Assembly: GCF_000317515.1 (NCBI RefSeq)
Contig: NC_019738.1
Location: 4,738,001 to 4,802,000 of the forward strand
Direction of reading: 5' to 3'
DNA from: Allocoleopsis franciscana PCC 7113
GTDB lineage: Bacteria; Cyanobacteriota; Cyanobacteriia; Cyanobacteriales; Coleofasciculaceae
Length of the DNA: 64,000 nt
Below the pieces are notes generated by a model. It saw nothing but the letters and a program-made list of their open reading frames with translations. It was not told where the DNA came from and made no database searches. The translations under genes and the position numbers were made by a program. Position 1 is the first letter of the stretch. Every line of letters starts with the position of its first letter. Of this stretch, positions 6,440 to 55,380 are shown in pieces.

Positions 6440-6589
6440 TCTAGGAGTGAGATGTTAAATACCTAGCTTGGGAGATTATTGTTGGATTGGCATTGAATAA
6501 TTTGGAGTAAAGCGCTAACAGGAGAGGGATAGCTTTATATCTCAGCCAAATGATAGCGACTTGCTTAAGTTAGTTGCATATCTAAACCC

Positions 6590-7189
6590 ATGAAACGACT
6601 CCAGCCAACAACTGCCGGTTTAGCTTTGACGCTGTTAGTAATAATGACAGGATGCGGTAAGGAGCAGACTCCACAACCTGATGCCATCTTTGTCTTAGGG
6701 GGAGCAACAGAGCGAGAGCGGTTTGCGGCTAAGTTTGCGGCAAAGCATCCAGAACTGCCGATCTGGGTGTCGTCGGGTAGCCCTGAAGGCTACGCAAAAC
6801 GGGTATTTGCCAAGGCTGGAATTGCCAAGAATCGCGTCCACTTGGATTATGAAGCCGTGGATACAGTGACTAACTTCACAAGTTTCGTAGATAAGTTTCA
6901 ATCTCAGGGAGTGGATAGCGTTTATTTAATTACTTCCGACTACCATATGCGCCGCGCTCTGGTTATCGGTGAAATTGTGTTTGGCACCAGAGGAATTAAG
7001 ATTTCTCCTGTACCGATTCCTACGGGGAAGCCTACTGAACCCACGAAAAAATGCCTGCGAGATGGTGCAAGAGCAATCCTTTGGGCCAATACGGGACATA
7101 CCGGCGCAAGTCTCTCTCAGAAAGCAGACATTGCCCAGAAACCGAAACTCGACTCTAGTATGTTGTTAAGTGCTTGCTACAGAAAGTAG
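6590..7189 (+). CDS. YdcF/DUF218-family lipoprotein
   Basis: 199 residues. The N-terminus is a signal peptide with a lipobox-like IMTGC, the predicted lipidated cysteine being residue 22. The DUF218 domain follows: PDAIFVLGG near residue 30, then DTVTNFTSF, and [10 protein letters not shown], the characteristic YHMRRA segment of the family (SanA/YdcF/ElyC-like). Related proteins act in envelope integrity, but the reaction is not settled. The last codons and the TAG stop lie inside the inverted repeat of the element at 7184-7374, so the native C-terminus may have been altered by that element. Confidence 0.85.
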
Positions 7190-7374
7190 GTAAGCATTAA
7201 TATTTGTCGTTGAGGCAAGGCAGAGGGTATAAGGCAGAAGGCAGAAGGCAGAAGGCAGAAGGCAGAAGGCAGAAGGCAGAAGGCAGAAGGCAGAAGGCAG
7301 AAGGCAGAAGGGTAGAGGATTAAAGTCTCTTAGCATTTGTTGATATACCTTCGTTGATTTGTGCTTACCTACTT
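7184..7374. repeat. MITE-like element with an 80-bp heptamer array
   Basis: A perfect 13-bp inverted repeat, AAGTAGGTAAGCA at 7184-7196 and TGCTTACCTACTT at 7362-7374, encloses 7231-7310, which is about 11.4 uninterrupted copies of AAGGCAG. No coding capacity. The left end overlaps the stop codon of the YdcF gene and the right end abuts the IS5-type element, whose target duplication TACTTA partly lies in the right inverted repeat. Such an array is expected to vary in copy number between strains. Confidence 0.85.
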
Positions 7375-7495
7375 AGGGCTTACTGCACAAATCCGAAACC
7401 CTTAGCCATCAATAGTTTAAGCGGCATTGATAGTTGCTCAGCTGCAAGGCAATCAGGTAAAATCCGACAAAACCCTTGCACCTGAACTAGGGAAA

Positions 7496-7981
7496 ATGTA
7501 CCGGAAAGTTGACTCACCCCCCACCCCACCGGAAAAGTTTGAGTTACCCTTTGAGGGAAAGTTATCACAAGATAACCGTTGGGTAATCATCGCTAATCTC
7601 ATACCCTGGGAAGAATTTGAAGAGGAATACGCCAGAAACTTTGCCGAAGATATAGGTGCACCCGCCCTACCGTTTAGGATGGCATTGGGTTCATTAATAA
7701 TCAAAGAGAAATTAGGAATAAGTGATAGAGAAACAGTAGAACAGATAAAAGAGAATCCGTATTTACAATACTTTATAGGACAAAAGTATTACAGCAACGA
7801 GGCTCCGTTTGACGCCTCCCTATTAGTGAGATTTAGAGAAAGAATAAATGCGAATTTAGTGAATCAAATAAATCAAAGAATGGTACACAAGAGTCAAGAA
7901 GAGAGCGAGGAGAAAGCTAAAAAAAAAGCTCACTCTCAGAAAGGGAAGAAGCAAGAGAGCGCTCCAATCAAGGGAAATTAA
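7496..7981 (+). CDS. IS5-family transposase, N-terminal frame
   Basis: 161 residues from the ATG at 7496 (MYRKVDSPPTPPEKF), preceded by AGGG; an open TTG start exists at 7427. It holds the N-terminal transposase domain (RMALGSLIIKEKLGISDRETVEQIKENPYLQYFIGQKYY...FDASLLVRFRERI). The frame runs through nine A residues at 7919-7927 and stops at 7979-7981. After the A run the -1 frame, not this one, continues the family sequence (NQGKLILDATCAPGDI), so the last about 18 residues here are not transposase-like. Either a -1 ribosomal frameshift on the A run produces the full enzyme, or an indel in the run has broken the gene. Confidence 0.8.
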   Translation: MYRKVDSPPTPPEKFELPFEGKLSQDNRWVIIANLIPWEEFEEEYARNFAEDIGAPALPFRMALGSLIIKEKLGISDRETVEQIKENPYLQYFIGQKYYSNEAPFDASLLVRFRERINANLVNQINQRMVHKSQEESEEKAKKKAHSQKGKKQESAPIKGN

Positions 7982-8943
7982 TACTGGATGCAACCTGTGC
8001 GCCAGGAGATATCAGCTATCCCAATGATTTGGGACTGTTAAATCAAGCCAGAGTCAAAACAGAAAAGATAATAGATAGCCTGTATAAACCGCTGAAAGGG
8101 AAACTAGGGAAAAAGCCAAAGACTTATAGAAACCTGGCTCGAAAAAATTACTTGCAAGTCGCAAAAAAACGGAAACCGTCAAGAAAACAAATCAGAAAAG
8201 CAATCAGAAAGCAATTGCAATATGTCAAAAGAAACTTAGCTCACATAGACCAGCTAACCCAAGCAGGCGATGGCTTAGAGGCTTTAAGCTCCCCTCAATA
8301 CAAAAGCTTACTGGTGGTCGCAGAAGTTTATCGTCAACAGCAATGGATGTATGACAATAAAACATCAAGAATTGAGGACAGGATAGTCAGTTTAAGTCAA
8401 CCGCATATCCGTCCAATAGTGAGAGGGAAAGCCGGAAGTCCTGTGGAATTTGGAGCCAAACTCTCGGTAAGTTTAAGAGATGGATATGTATTTTTAGACC
8501 GGATAGACTGGAATAACTTTAATGAATCGGGAGATTTAAAAACCCAAGTAGAAGCCTTTAAAGAAGCTACAGGAGTGTATCCAGAATCAGTACACGTTGA
8601 TCGAATTTATCGAACCCGCTCCAATCGAGCCTTTTGTAAAGAAAGAGGGATTAGAATCAGTGGACCCCCTTTGGGAAGACCGCCAGCTAATGTCAGTGAT
8701 GAAAAGAAGAAGCAAGCCAAAGAAGATGAAACAGTTCGTAATGCGATTGAAGGGAAATTTGGAGTATCCAAACGAAGATTTAGCTTGAATAGAGTTATGG
8801 CTAAACTGCCTAACACCTCTCAAACAGCTATTGCTATTGCTTTTTTGGTCATGAAGCAAGTCCGTCCTGCTACGGCAGGTTTTTTGTCTTTTTTTGTGCT
8901 TTCAGCTCTCACCACACCTTTGGGGAAGACAAACTATTATTAA
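7921..8943 (+). CDS. IS5-family transposase, C-terminal catalytic frame (-1 relative to N-terminal frame)
   Basis: About 340 codons open from just after a TAA at 7918-7920 to the stop at 8943, so it has no conventional start near its beginning (first ATG-like start would be at 8029). It begins KKSSLSEREEARERSNQGKLILDATCAPGDISYPNDLGLLNQAR and includes the DDE region: the first Asp in LDAT, DRIYRTRSNRAF... for the second, and the C-terminal segment EGKFGVSKRRFSLNRVMAKL that holds the Glu. Joined by a -1 shift at 7919-7927 to the N-terminal frame it gives a transposase of about 480 residues. Confidence 0.78.
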   Translation, partial: KKSSLSEREEARERSNQGKLILDATCAPGDISYPNDLGLLNQARVKTEKIIDSLYKPLKGKLGKKPKTYRNLARKNYLQVAKKRKPSRKQIRKAIRKQLQYVKRNLAHIDQLTQAGDGLEALSSPQYKSLLVVAEVYRQQQWMYDNKTSRIEDRIVSLSQPHIRPIVRGKAGSPVEFGAKLSVSLRDGYVFLDRIDWNNFNESGDLKTQVEAFKEATGVYPESVHVDRIYRTRSNRAFCKERGIRISGPPLGRPPANVSDEKKKQAKEDETVRNAIEGKFGVSKRRFSLNRVMAKLPNTSQTAIAIAFLVMKQVRPATAGFLSFFVLSALTTPLGKTNYY

Positions 8944-9091
8944 AGCTGATATTTGGAGGCATTGTCAACAACAATACCTCATCATTCCTTCAACCTTACA
9001 TAACTAATTAATCCATCGGTGGTTTTTCTCTGACTTATTCAGCAAGCCCTACTTAAGTGCAAGACAAAAGTGAGAAAGATGTCAGAAAAAC

Positions 9092-28295: not shown

Positions 28296-29355
28296 GCTGG
28301 GAGGATTTCTGCCAGGAGTGATGCCCAATCTTGGGTTGTATCGATCGAGGTGACGAGAGATTGTTCTGCCTCCGTAAAGGGTTCAGCCGTCGCTAACTGT
28401 TGAGTCAGTAAATCGGCAGTAGCATCGGAAACATCGCCTGTGCGAGAAGATAAGCGATCGCGCAATATTTCCTCTGGTGCCGTACACTGGATCATCTTGA
28501 GGGGCAAATGATGACGATTCGCTTGAGCCATCGCCTCTTGTCGTAACGCCCTGCGATCGTATTTTGCATCTAAAATCACCGGAAAGCCTGCGTTTGCCAG
28601 CATGATGCCCAATTCCAATAAGCGTCCGTAAGTCTTCTGGCTCATTTCACTGGTATAAAGTTCATCTCCCCCTTTCTGTGCCAAGGGAATCCCCGCCAGG
28701 TGTTTGCGTACTGCATCTGAACGCAGGTGAATCGCCCCTAAGCGCCGTGCGAGATGTCGCGCTACCGTCGATTTACCAGAACCCGACACCCCTGACATCA
28801 AAATCAATTGCCCCTGATTTGTTTTCGTATACTCCCACGCCTGTCGATAATAATCTGACGCGACTTTTGCCGCCTCTTGCTTGGCATCTTGCGGCACACC
28901 AGGGTCATCCAGTAAAAAAGAAGTGACCTTCGCTCTGACATACGCCTGCCGACTTAAGTACAACGGTAAAACCTGCAATCCTTCCCAGTCGCCCGTTTGC
29001 TCAATATAGGTATTTAAAAAGGCATTTCCTAAGTCTTTACGCCCCCGTGCTTCTAAATCCATCACGGCAAACGCCACATCGTACATTACATCAACAAAGC
29101 GGAATGGCTCATTAAATTCAATCCGATCAAACAATTGAATTTTGTCATGCCAAAAGCAAATATTTCTTAGATGCAAATCGCCGTGACATTCCCGAATCCG
29201 GTTATTTTCCCGACGTGTTGCGAATAACGTCTGCTGCTGTTCAAAGAAGGTATCGCTAAAGTTCTTGGTTTCCTCGTATTGTTGTTGCGTTTGAGGCTCA
29301 CCAATATAAGTAGGTGGATAGGGAAAAACTCAACTATGTAACGCTACATTAACAA

Positions 29356-30009
29356 TTAGCCGGACTTGAACTTGAAACGCTCTGTACTCCGCCCCTCAAC
29401 TTGGCCTCTAGCTTCTAGACCATCCATCACTGCATAAGCTAGGTCTAACTCATCTTCAAACATCTGCCCTGCCAGTTCATGGGTTTTGAGTTGATGCCAT
29501 TCCGACTCAATCAGATTCATCTGGGAGCAATAGGCTGGCAAAAAGAATAAGTACAATCCTTGAGCTTCCCATTGTGCCCACTTTTGTTGTACTGGAGTAC
29601 TGGTATGAATTGAGCCATTGTCTTGCACGATGACGCGAATCCGTCCGGTATTGGCAAACTCTTGTGCTGCAACACCAGCTTGCTGATCGATCATTTTGAT
29701 GTAGCTTTCACTGGTGAAACTGCCAATCACTAAGCCATAGACGAAGCTGACTAACGGTTGCCAAAGCCCTAAAATACTCAGCCGTCTCCCTCGTCGAGGG
29801 GTTTGTTCGAGGCGTTTTTGTTCCCCCCGGAAAAAGTAGCTGTAGCTGGCTGGACTCCACAAGCTAAACCCGGACTCATCCAGGTACAGTAGGTCAATCT
29901 CTCCCGTGGCAGCAGCTAACTCCAACATATCCAAGTCGGCTTGCTTGATGGCTCGTTGTTCGGAATCTTGTTTGTCTCGATGGCTGACACGGGTACGCTT
30001 CCACATCAC
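29356..30009 (-). CDS. IS630-family transposase, DDE catalytic frame
   Basis: 217 residues. Catalytic triad visible: LLYLDESGFSLW (first D), VIVQDNGSIHTS (second D) and NLIESEWHQLK (E). The frame lies -1 to the HTH frame and the 4-bp overlap follows an AAAAAAAGGGGG run, so programmed frameshifting is probable, as in other two-frame IS630 elements. Both frames are undamaged, so the element may be active. Confidence 0.9.
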   Translation of the reverse strand: MMWKRTRVSHRDKQDSEQRAIKQADLDMLELAAATGEIDLLYLDESGFSLWSPASYSYFFRGEQKRLEQTPRRGRRLSILGLWQPLVSFVYGLVIGSFTSESYIKMIDQQAGVAAQEFANTGRIRVIVQDNGSIHTSTPVQQKWAQWEAQGLYLFFLPAYCSQMNLIESEWHQLKTHELAGQMFEDELDLAYAVMDGLEARGQVEGRSTERFKFKSG

Positions 30010-30416
30010 CCCCTTTTTTTGAGTACTCGACGCAGGTGGTCGGGACTCAGTTGAACTTGCCGCTCCGTTGCCAGTTTTTGTGCCAATTGATGAGCGTTGT
30101 AGGTGCGATTGTCTTGTCTAAGACACGCTTCAACATATTCGATGTCGGCTTTTTGCCAACGACATTTCCCCCCTCGTCCGGAAGCCTCCCACAATCCTCC
30201 CAATCCCTTGGTTTCCCACCGATGAATCGTCTCTCGTACCGTTTGCATATGCCAGTTGAAGTAGATGGCGATTTTCTCGACGTACCACCCTTGTGCATTC
30301 AGTCGCACCACTTCAGCTCGATCTTTGACCCGTTGCGGCACTGTTGTCGCCGTTCTCAGCTCAAACAATGTTCGCTTTTGTTCGAGTGTGAGGAAGATTC
30401 TCAGTCGGGCACCCAT
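30006..30416 (-). CDS. IS630-family transposase, N-terminal HTH frame
   Basis: 136 residues: LRIFLTLEQKRTLFELRTATTVPQRVKDRAEVVRLNAQGWYVEKIAIYFNWHMQTVRETIHRWETKGLGGLWEASGRGG, the paired HTH DNA-binding part, then LRRVLKKRG and stop. The end contains A7G5, a heptamer-type slippery site. A -1 shift there would join it to the DDE frame starting at 30009. Confidence 0.88.
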   Translation of the reverse strand: MGARLRIFLTLEQKRTLFELRTATTVPQRVKDRAEVVRLNAQGWYVEKIAIYFNWHMQTVRETIHRWETKGLGGLWEASGRGGKCRWQKADIEYVEACLRQDNRTYNAHQLAQKLATERQVQLSPDHLRRVLKKRG

Positions 30417-31144
30417 GAGTCATCTCCTAGATTGAAGAGCTTGATGATTCACTTATCTTTACATACTTTAGGATTTTCTCCCCGACCTACTTACTTTTCT
30501 GTTTGCTGATAATTTTCGTCAAATGCCTCGCGAATTTTAGAGACTTCCCCAAAAGAGCAGATGTAATCATTGGTTTGGGCTTTGTCATGGAATTGGGCAA
30601 CCATTCGCCCTAAATCTTCCATGTGGGTTTCTGTCAACTTCCCCTGTTCAAACATCGTAATAAATAGCGCTTCTTGAGGAAATTGGCACATTTTTAGCGT
30701 AGATTCTACCGCTTCACCCGCACCCCCCAAAACAAACTTGCCATCAATTTCAGCAATAGGCAAAACCTCCAGATAAATCTCCGGCGCAATTGGCTGATTC
30801 ATCCGCAATTCTTCTAAACAGAAATGCTGCCGTTGTGCCAAAGTGGAGAAATCTAAGAAGCCAAAATTCACCGGTTTCTTGACTTTATAAGCATAATCAC
30901 CGGTCAGAAACACGTAGGAAACATGAGTTTGAATGAATTGAATGGGTTCTGTTACCGGGTGAGGATAGAACCCTGGCTCCATCATTTGCTGAATTAAGGC
31001 AGGAACAGATGTCTGTGTCATGTTTTCAGGTAGGCTTCGTTTACAAGTCGTGATGCGTACAGCCCCCATGCTTTTAGCAGGAGGAAGATGTCAAAGTCTT
31101 GGTTTTATATGAGGGGAAGGGACAAATGTTCTTGGATGCGGCAT

Positions 31145-31265
31145 TATAGCTGTAGCCATAAAGGTTAGGACTTTCTTTAATAACCTAAACGACCCATACC
31201 AGTCATAACTATTCTGCCTTCTGTCTACTCCTGCCCAGAACGCTGCGCGAACTGCCTTCTGCTAT
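31145..31265. repeat. Dispersed MITE-like repeat, copy 1
   Basis: About 120 bp related to 39532-39649. Shared blocks in order: TATAGCTGT, CATAAAG-TTAGGAC, ACGAC, CCAGT, TTCTGCC, the 20-mer CCCAGAACGCTGCGCGAACT (31234-31253) and GCCTT-TGCTAT. Ends ATAGC/GCTAT are inverted repeats. Confidence 0.75.
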
Positions 31266-31327: not shown

Positions 31328-31927
31328 TCAAGTCGCTTCTGAAGCTTCTTCGGTTCCTTCTTGTGTACCGCCAGCGTAACCGCCCACAATGACAATCGTG
31401 GTTTCGGGTTCAAGCATTGGTGTAATGCCCTGTGGCAGAATGAGGTCGCCAACATGCAGACTATCTCCAATCTCTAGATTAGAAACATCAACATCAATGG
31501 ATTCGGGGATGTCGCCTGGGGCACACTGTACCTGAATTTCTGTAATCACAGGGTCGAGGATTCCTCCTGATTTAATCCCTGCGGCCTGTCCCACAAAGTG
31601 CAAAGGCACGGTTACTTCAAGGCTGTCTTGAGAAGCTACGGAGAAAAAGCTGAGATGGTAGATTTGACTTCTTTTCCAAGGATGAGATTGCACTTCCCGC
31701 AGGAGAGCTTTACCATTCCAGGAAATGTCAGGAATATTGACCTGAACAAGAGTGTTGTTAACTGTAGCCTTTTTGAGCAGAGTTTCTGCGGTTTTGGCGG
31801 GTAAGGTGAGTGAAACGGATTCTGTCCCTTTATGTCCGTAGAGAACCGCAGGGATTAAACCCGAACGACGCAAGGCTCCTGGCTTGCTGCCGTCTGGTCG
31901 CTTTTGACATTCAACTGAAACTTCCAT
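31328..31927 (-). CDS. rplY: 50S ribosomal protein bL25 (general stress/CTC form)
   Basis: 199 residues. The N-terminal domain (MEVSVECQKRPDGSKPGALRRSGLIPAVLYGHKGTESVSLTL) and the L25 core (QVNIPDISWNGKALLREVQSHPWKRSQIYHLSFFSV) bind 5S rRNA. A C-terminal TL5/CTC beta domain (VTVPLHFVGQAAGIKSGGILDPVITEIQVQCAPGDIPESIDVDVSNLEIGDSLHVGDL) is present, so it is the long form. An acidic tail ends GTEEASEAT. It follows purA on the same strand after 114 bp. Confidence 0.97.
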   Translation of the reverse strand: MEVSVECQKRPDGSKPGALRRSGLIPAVLYGHKGTESVSLTLPAKTAETLLKKATVNNTLVQVNIPDISWNGKALLREVQSHPWKRSQIYHLSFFSVASQDSLEVTVPLHFVGQAAGIKSGGILDPVITEIQVQCAPGDIPESIDVDVSNLEIGDSLHVGDLILPQGITPMLEPETTIVIVGGYAGGTQEGTEEASEAT

Positions 31928-39152: not shown

Positions 39153-39899
39153 TGCTTTGCGTTCCTCTCCTCGCCGAAGCCAGGTTCTTTACGGTTTCTT
39201 GGCTTAATGGGGTTTTACTGAGTAACGGACGGTGTTGTCGCTTCCCTTTGTGGTCACAGCTTTTTTGTACAACGGCGATTCTGTTACTGTGAATAACCAG
39301 AGAATTTTTCCACAACGATGAAGTCAATTACTCTTAACGTCTTAAAGCCGATGTTCGCAGCCTTTGAACCCGTGTCACAGACTAAAATTTTTCTTGTTAT
39401 GAGCTTCTATGCAAGCTTTCCCCCGATTCGTCATCGGTTGATTACTTTAATCTTAACTAATTTTAGAACCTCTTTTCTAATCTTTATAAATCATATAAAA
39501 CCTTAAGAAATATAAAGTGCTTAAAAAAGTTATATAGCTGTCGTCATAAAGCTTAGGACAGATTGAACGGCTGTAAACGACTGCGTACCAGTAAAAAACC
39601 TTCTGCCTACTCCTGCCCAGAACGCTGCGCGAACTGCCTTTTGCTATATGACTAACCGAACTCAGGACTTTGAATTGAAATAGGGGTTAGTCAAAATAAT
39701 ACTCAAGGGAATAGAGCGCGTGAGTTGATAAGCAACTCAACTCAGCAATCAATTAATGCAGCGAGATATTTCAACGCCAAATCTAAAGATTAGATTGCAG
39801 TTTCTAACTTTAGGGTTGGCGAGGTACAAAATAACAGTAAGTATGAACTCAACAACAGTCCTTGAGTAATGTAAAGGCGTACTGAGAGGGGAAATACTG
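39153..39899. other. Long intergenic region with a MITE-like repeat
   Basis: 747 bp with no convincing gene. A 62-codon frame at 39318-39506 has no support. The MITE-like repeat at 39532-39649 takes up part of it. A nearby inverted pair GACTAACC/GGTTAGTC lies at about 39648-39690. The AGAGGGGAAAT before 39900 is the ribosome-binding region of the next gene. Confidence 0.6.
39532..39649. repeat. Dispersed MITE-like repeat, copy 2
   Basis: Related to 31145-31265 along its length, with the identical 20-mer CCCAGAACGCTGCGCGAACT at 39616-39635. Ends are perfect 7-bp inverted repeats ATATAGC (39532-39538) and GCTATAT (39643-39649). Confidence 0.78.
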
Positions 39900-54064: not shown

Positions 54065-54108
54065 GTGCAAATCCGCTTTGATCGGCTTCCTAAGGGGTTA
54101 TCACATTA

Positions 54109-54206
54109 TGTCCGGCTGAATCTTACACTTTGGTGGAGAGAAGGCAGAAGGCAAGGAGGAAGGTTGTAAGGTCAAAGGAAATGATGGCTGTTTAGCCGGA
54201 AATTAT
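54109..54206. repeat. MITE-like element with heptamers and 9-bp flanking direct repeat
   Basis: ATCACATTA occurs directly at 54100-54108 and 54207-54215, a likely target duplication. Inside, TCCGGCT (54111-54117) and AGCCGGA (54194-54200) are inverted, with weaker pairing outside. GAGAAGGCAGAAGGCAAGG in the middle is a heptamer fragment. The right flank overlaps the TGA stop of the oxidoreductase gene. Confidence 0.6.
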
Positions 54207-54207
54207 A

Positions 54208-55380
54208 TCACATTACAAACAAGCCACTAGCCAAAAACGCATCTAAACTTGGCACTTTCACCCAACTCCCCGTGTCATGAGATTGATGGGTTAAATCCAT
54301 TAATAGCTGCGAGTACACCCCTTCTCGGAGTGAGGGGGTGATGGCTTGGTGGGCATCAATGCCTTGTACCCACTGATTAACGACTCGGATAAAGGGTGCC
54401 AAACGCCCATCAATGTACTCTTGAGGAAAGGCGAGGCGATCGGGAATTTCAATATTTGTCAAAGGTTCACCGGCGGGCGCGACTTTGAGATGAAACCCGT
54501 GGACGTAATCTTTTTGATTGTCGCTGCCTAAGATTAAAGTACCGCGATCGCCATACACTTCCACAAAGTGCCCTCGCCCCTGATACGTTACGGAACTAAT
54601 GCACAGTTGACAGGGTGTTCCATCTTCCAACTCCAACAGCAGGAGACAAGTATCATCCGCATCTACGCGCTTGAGTTTACCACCATCACTCTGATCGGGC
54701 CGTTCTGGAATTGCCGTACTTAGTTGGGCACACAACCGCCGCACAGGGCCAAATAACCAATGAATGTAATCGAAAGCGTGAGAACCGACAGCGCCCAATG
54801 CGCCTCCTCCCTTATCTTTTTGAGCATACCAGTTCCAAGGGCGTGAGGCATCGGCACGGCTGGACACCAACCAATCAATTTTAATCAGGCGTTTTTGTCC
54901 CACATATCCCTCGGCTAGATATTCGGCAAACCGTTGCCACGCGGGAACAAAGCGAAATTCAAAATCCATCATGGCAACAACCCCCTCACCAGAGGCGAGT
55001 TGGTAAAGTTCCCGCGCCTGGGTGGCTGTCAGCGTTGTGGGTTTTTCCAGCAATAAATGCTTCTTCGCGTGCAAGACTTTCTTCGCCATTTCATAATGCA
55101 GGAATGGCGGGGTTGAGAGGCTGACGGCTGAAACCGAGGGTTCGGCTAGGATATCTTCAAGGCGATCGCAAGCATGGGGAATGTTGTGGGATTGTGCGAT
55201 CGCTTTTGCCTGTTTCAGTTCGCGGTGATACAGGGCAACCACTTGAGTCCGGGGGTGTTCCTGAAAACCTGGAATGTGGATTTTTTGCCCAAATCCAGTA
55301 CCGACAACCGCGACACCAATGGTTGGTGTTTGTGGGGTTGCATTTGGATCAGACAATGGGGCGGGTGAGGGGGACATCAT
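54208..55380 (-). CDS. Gfo/Idh/MocA-family oxidoreductase
   Basis: 390 residues. N-terminal NAD(P)-binding Rossmann motif GVAVVGTGFGQKIHIPGF (about 23-40), VVALYHRELKQAKAIAQSHNIPHACDRLEDILAEPSVSAVSLSTPPFLHYEMAKKVLHAKKHLLLEKPTT with the typical EKPTT, and the C-terminal dehydrogenase fold with DWLVSSRADASRPWNWYAQKDKGGGALGAVGSHAFDYIHWLFG. NAD(P)-dependent dehydrogenation of a sugar or related polyol, substrate unknown. The stop codon lies at the boundary of the MITE-like element at 54109-54206. Confidence 0.93.
   Translation of the reverse strand: MMSPSPAPLSDPNATPQTPTIGVAVVGTGFGQKIHIPGFQEHPRTQVVALYHRELKQAKAIAQSHNIPHACDRLEDILAEPSVSAVSLSTPPFLHYEMAKKVLHAKKHLLLEKPTTLTATQARELYQLASGEGVVAMMDFEFRFVPAWQRFAEYLAEGYVGQKRLIKIDWLVSSRADASRPWNWYAQKDKGGGALGAVGSHAFDYIHWLFGPVRRLCAQLSTAIPERPDQSDGGKLKRVDADDTCLLLLELEDGTPCQLCISSVTYQGRGHFVEVYGDRGTLILGSDNQKDYVHGFHLKVAPAGEPLTNIEIPDRLAFPQEYIDGRLAPFIRVVNQWVQGIDAHQAITPSLREGVYSQLLMDLTHQSHDTGSWVKVPSLDAFLASGLFVM

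Follow-up and report, generated by a model that had tools for sequence, protein, structure and literature searches.

The locus lies within a 64-kb window, the whole stretch of DNA analyzed here. It comprises a DUF218 gene, a 189-bp MITE that occupies the 3′ end of that gene, and an IS5-type insertion sequence (IS) lodged in the MITE tip. An IS630-family IS with MITE-like tips is situated 22 kb from the MITE. Two genomes recur in the comparisons: G000, the window's own genome, and G001, one other genome of the same genus. The features, in order of position, are as follows.

6590–7189, + strand: DUF218 gene; the MITE end creates its final codon and stop (AAG TAG), and the protein terminates in SACYRK*, as against SACYR* in G001
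7184–7196, + strand: left arm of the perfect 13-bp inverted repeat, AAGTAGGTAAGCA, read from the window sequence; supplies the new stop codon to the upstream gene
7185–7373, + strand: MITE body, family A, with ends AGTAGGTAAGCA...TGCTTACCTACT; a repeated family, the site being empty in G001
7217–7223, + strand: seed-like AAGGCAG following GTCGTTGAGGC; at least one perfect AAGGCAG is present in 51 of 59 family A copies
7231–7307, + strand: 11 perfect tandem AAGGCAG units, from Tandem Repeats Finder and a count of perfect runs
7362–7374, − strand: right arm of the perfect 13-bp inverted repeat, TGCTTACCTACTT, read from the window sequence
7375–9050, + strand: IS5-type IS in the MITE tip, with a transposase ORF broken into a DUF772 part and a DDE_Tnp_1_2 part; 4-bp duplication ACTT at 7371–7374 and 9051–9054
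29309–30491, − strand: IS630-family IS of 1183 bp, with tips AGTAGGTCGGGG / AGTAGGTGGATA that match the MITE and TA on both sides; candidate autonomous partner
29356–30009, − strand: second ORF of the IS630 (DDE_3), above the curated cut-off of the NCBIfam IS630 model and supported by Pfam
30006–30416, − strand: first ORF of the IS630 (HTH domains by Pfam), below the NCBIfam IS630 cut-off

As an earlier note on this DNA had described, the AAGGCAG array is enclosed by a perfect 13-bp inverted repeat, the right arm being the exact complement of the left, and the array within it runs to 11 perfect units. Tandem Repeats Finder calls a period of 7 with consensus AAGGCAG over 7217–7311 (13.6 copies, 93% match), and the score of 169 is the second-highest among its 14 rows for the window. 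If the TA target is counted as a duplication, the element proper is 7185–7373. It contains no ORF of 60 aa or more, a weak test at such length. Taken alone, the 13-bp inverted repeat is weak evidence for an element: in 20 first-order Markov simulations of the window, perfect inverted repeats 13 bp or longer, within 400 bp, arose zero or one time per simulated window, with one in 7 of the 20, and the real window holds two such places, the second at 31571–31859. What lifts the element above chance is its recurrence with unrelated flanks together with its empty sites; these dispersed copies and empty sites rule out a chance inverted repeat, though the repeat itself is not rare.

Copies of the element, designated family A, were collected by the exact core of the left inner arm, which is found 8 times in G000, 7 times in G001, and in 44 stretches from named cyanobacteria, mostly Coleofasciculus, Symploca, Nostoc, and Anabaena, with Symplocastrum, Brasilonema, and a few unplaced cyanobacteria among the others; the search required AGGCA, such that copies lacking the seed may be missed. 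The earlier note had proposed a genome search with the 13-bp ends themselves. That exact 13-mer occurs four times in G000, two of these being the element in the window. Since most family A copies end in AAGTAGGTNGGCA or close to it, an exact search with the ends of the window copy under-counts the family, and it is the core of the left inner arm that brings the number to 8. A DNA search of G000 with the whole unit (40 of 150 candidates scored) returned sequences whose arms match and which have few or no heptamers between. The 59 copies that were read have differing flanks and are thus dispersed; the right end could be located in 38 of them, giving lengths of 109 to 274 bp with a median of 132.5.

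Empty sites and target duplications, which the earlier note had suggested seeking, were looked for by joining the flanks of 13 copies into single queries against both genomes. At least 5 of the 13 have an uninterrupted site in the other genome (40 of 83 and 40 of 97 candidates scored): the window copy and L128 are absent from their sites in G001, and the G001 copies L137, L139, and L141 from theirs in G000. A single TA stands at the join in four of these five aligned empty sites, the alignment of L137 being messy, and TA is accordingly shown by the empty sites to be the target. For the remaining eight copies, the query hit a single flank, pieces, or nothing, or else recovered both flanks separated by other sequence. 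L131 is of the last kind, its flanks aligning to ~34.6–35.0 kb of the window around 237 intervening bases. The copy pair L136/L129 is orthologous and filled in both genomes. Among the copies with both ends located, TA flanks both sides in 21 of 38 and is absent on one or both sides in the other 17; it is present on the left side in 43 of all 59. Alignment with the empty site in G001 shows that the window copy itself has lost one base from its left TA. The 189-bp unit is a real, MITE-like mobile element with TA as its target. In this respect the earlier note, which had called it a MITE-like unit, was right, and dispersed copies, empty sites, the TA target, and an IS with matching tips now stand behind the designation.

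Insertion of the window copy altered the end of a gene. In G001, the DUF218 reading frame terminates as SACYR followed by TAA, and the TA of that stop is the insertion target. The window protein instead reads SACYRK, and its TAG stop comes from the MITE end, which presents a stop in every forward frame within its first 17 bases. A mobile element has here taken over the stop codon of a gene, at a cost of one extra residue.

The natural candidate for a partner is the IS630 in the same window, with which the MITE has AGTAGGTNGG-type tips in common. PF13358 (DDE_3) is found at five places in G000, three of which are copies of one IS, the window IS630 among them; the IS ends in this genome are AGTAGGTCGG and AGTAGGTGG, adjoining TA. 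The two ORFs of the window IS630 overlap by four bases (30006–30009) beside an A/G run, an arrangement that suggests a programmed frameshift. Past the first 12 bp, the right ends of the seven Nostoc MITE copies tested are all like the G000 IS (z 3.0 to 6.4), and those of six non-Nostoc copies are weakly so (z 0.2 to 2.5, the window copy included at 1.7 and 0.7); the right ends of those six do not match the IS of G019 or G013 past the 12-bp tip. In none of 13 copies is the left end, past the 12-bp tip, like any of the three IS compared (z −2.7 to 0.8). MITE and IS630 thus hold their tips in common and their right ends in part, with the left interior apart. These common tips suggest that the window IS630 could mobilize the MITE.

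The same type of tip recurs in relatives of this IS. In those of G013 and G019, AAGTAGGTGGG forms either end. Among 26 plasmid records with a relative, six were examined: three have AGTAGGT[AG]GG at both ends, one end in Nostoc UHCC 0302 being AGTAGGTAGGCAC, and the other three have different tips with AGTAAGTCG-type right ends. A DNA search of plasmids using the IS630 produced no match. At E ≤ 1e-30, the transposase is matched in 5 of 37 genomes searched, G000 included. G001 has seven MITE copies, yet no match to the transposase at that threshold, so the partner may be patchily distributed, or other transposases may serve in its place.

Arrays of the heptamer reach well beyond family A. In G000, 27 loci contain at least three perfect tandem AAGGCAG units (30 runs, 116 pattern hits), and 26 of them (25 in the first version of the motifs) are in, or next to, repeated elements that fall into about nine kinds, where the classifier scores an array locus within 230 bp of an element motif and so records association, not proof that the array is inside. 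This count is partly circular because most family motifs were derived from G000 arrays. Family B, with ends TATAGCAG...CAGCTATA, accounts for 13 loci, or 14 with one locus called as both B and I; C accounts for three, A, E, and G for two each, and D, F, and H for one each. In G001, 18 of 28 array loci are near motifs that had been fixed before that genome was examined, and 23 of 28 after F, I, and the right end of E had been added and H loosened, one of the five left being at a contig end. Random places in the fetched loci, scored with the final motifs as a control, gave 75 of 2400. The inverted repeat is not peculiar to the window copy, nor are the other arrays without bounding elements, the two findings that the earlier note had said would tell against it. 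In a search that scored 40 of 232 candidates, families C, D, E, and H were seen to be dispersed; family G consists of two similar left ends and family F of two orthologous sites. That most arrays of one heptamer, in two genomes, are in or beside small repeats with MITE features suggests that transposition plants a seed and that local change in copy number builds the array.

Family B, the largest contributor, occurs at 36 places in G000, with AGGCA within 140 bases before the match in 29 of 30 that were read and perfect AAGGCAG runs of 0 to 14 units. Two of its members, L196 and L201, have long arrays in which the uniform unit is a different one (AAGGTAG; GGCAGGA/GGCAGGG types), which suggests that local homogenization may have acted on them. 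When a transposase for this family was sought by way of TATAGC[AT]G near two other DDE_3 places in G000, a single match was obtained and no pair. The window has two matches to family B and one to family E, at 31145–31206, 39533–39594, and 54105–54208.

Conceivably, the AAGGCAG array is a module common to many unrelated cyanobacterial MITE families, held by each at a typical place and orientation and useful to them. We regard this as rather doubtful. If true, the array could act, for example, as a recombination joint at which MITE ends are swapped and genomes rearranged, or could offer smaller mobile repeats a landing pad. A hint in this direction comes from G000:C1:1428008, since the change there falls at the heptamers: this locus and its G001 counterpart have the right flank in common and differ on the left, switching at the heptamers (L130 1380–1660, L268 150–420).

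How the window came by its long array is best judged from the unit counts of its own family. Among the 59 family A copies, perfect tandem AAGGCAG units number 11 in one, 4 in one, 3 in two, 2 in six, and 1 in 41, with none in eight, and it is by these counts that the 11-unit array is exceptional. The comparison of array lengths between copies that the earlier note had suggested thus went against a general long array, the next longest after 11 being 4 units. The note had further held that arrays are the cargo of a MITE-like unit and that this may explain how they spread. Its first half finds company in the G000 loci in or beside elements; its second half fails for family A, whose transposition spreads a one-unit seed, the long array being local. 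Were the MITE to transport its long array as fixed cargo and spread such arrays by moving, one would expect an array wholly between the ends and an empty site that has neither ends nor array, as is the case here, but more than four units in a single copy and one unit in 41 rule out such spread in family A and make the idea very improbable. Instead, the window array most likely expanded in place from the conserved seed. At another element, the arrays at orthologous sites differ in length, at 3 units in G001 and 14, one of them imperfect, in G000; a filled ortholog of the window MITE site was not found in G001, and expansion of the window array itself was not seen. Several family A copies (L085, L087, L123, L128, L139, L141, and others) have other short repeats nested among their heptamers, some of them with GGCAG on either side, as in L087 and L128, for example.

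Taken together, we consider it highly probable that the unit is a non-autonomous MITE of the IS630, Tc1/mariner type with a one-unit seed, that it underwent local expansion, and that it replaced the DUF218 stop. A transposase of the IS630 subgroup with AGTAGGTNGG tips would recognize the MITE ends, as their common tips imply, and the MITE would enter at TA with duplication of that dinucleotide. The conserved interior AAGGCAG, often followed by AAGG, could provide a seed for slippage, from which the heptamer would grow or shrink locally after insertion, to 11 units in this case, presumably by slippage or unequal crossing-over. At this locus the MITE would have hit the TAA stop of the DUF218 gene and put the TAG of its own end in place, and an IS5-type IS would have entered the MITE tip as a later step.

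A quite different function might be sought in the fold of the unit. The RNA of 7184–7374 has a better fold than any of 200 shuffled versions (z −3.77), and the unit overlaps the 3′ end of the gene, as would be expected if it were kept chiefly for a hairpin, in RNA or DNA, that affects the upstream gene as a 3′-end structure, its mobility being incidental. However, inverted repeats fold in any case, the folded DNA is ordinary (z −1.36), no terminator-like site lies in the unit, and the site is empty in G001, where the gene has its own TAA; we hold a hairpin role to be highly unlikely. A structured RNA was likewise rejected, there being no Rfam match at E ≤ 1. Across 6500–7800, one promoter-like hit was found against 1.9 expected and two terminator-like hits against 1.3 expected, none of them within 7184–7374. 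That heptamer arrays were the insertion targets of MITEs, or that MITE arms arose around an older array, is scarcely credible even though other short repeats do sit within the heptamer part of family A copies, because a bare TA with no heptamer array stands at the join in four of the five aligned empty sites, none of the five has an array without MITE arms, and the place of the seed is fixed between family-specific arms.

For the mobile element with a locally grown array, the closest known kind is BrickBuilt of Porphyromonas gingivalis, a non-autonomous MITE with an internal tandem array and short inverted ends like those of a resident IS (PMC4596501). The trait of a tandem array within a MITE is found in family A, at 0 to 11 units over 59 copies. 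BrickBuilt has a 23-nt unit, GAGACC-type IS5-like ends, and target duplications that vary or are lacking, whereas family A has a 7-nt unit, AGTAGG IS630-type ends, and a TA target, and is therefore not BrickBuilt itself (PMC4596501). The window IS630 resembles ISY100 of Synechocystis, a member of the IS630/Tc1/mariner group that inserts almost only at TA, duplicates it, and has imperfect terminal repeats; the two differ in that ISY100 measures 947 bp with one transposase protein and 24-bp repeats, and the window IS630 is 1183 bp long with two overlapping ORFs (PMC2170065). Cyanobacterial MITEs are also represented by the Type II MITEs of Anabaena sp. 90, which number 147 complete or partial copies of 77–541 bp, mostly intergenic. 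By description they are set apart from family A, having no evident similarity to IS ends in their genome, whereas family A has such an IS (PMC3542288). In 1990, Mazel et al. reported dispersed tandem heptamers from a cyanobacterium, which were not characterized further, according to the accessible text of PMC4692102; there the heptamer is GGGGA(C/T)T, and that text does not place the arrays inside MITEs.

Our literature search, outside of which most subscription papers lie, found no paper placing AAGGCAG inside MITEs. In full-text string searches, the MITE core and end strings occurred in no paper and the doubled heptamer in two, whose titles are not cyanobacterial. Very small mobile elements are reportedly present in cyanobacteria, in the form of the small mobile repeats of Elhai et al. 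2008 and the Nezha MITE, and the families described here may overlap either of these. MITEs with tandem arrays, IS630 insertion at TA, and cyanobacterial tandem heptamers are each already known. With a candidate family A transposase of matching tips in the same window, the idea that transposition plants a seed which then grows locally is open to test at the bench.

The MITE has itself been a target. The tip that the IS5-type IS interrupts is the right one, and at G000:C1:4243420 a second IS5-type copy with an identical end occupies a MITE's left tip, with the duplication AAGT. Both G000 copies that have the 106-bp IS5-type end in common at 100% are oriented alike within family A MITE tips. That the IS5-type element has a particular affinity for the MITE was considered and set aside, as the tetramers before its 81–84% relatives, compared by eye, vary and include AAGT; plain target preference may account for the IS5-type copies in MITE tips.
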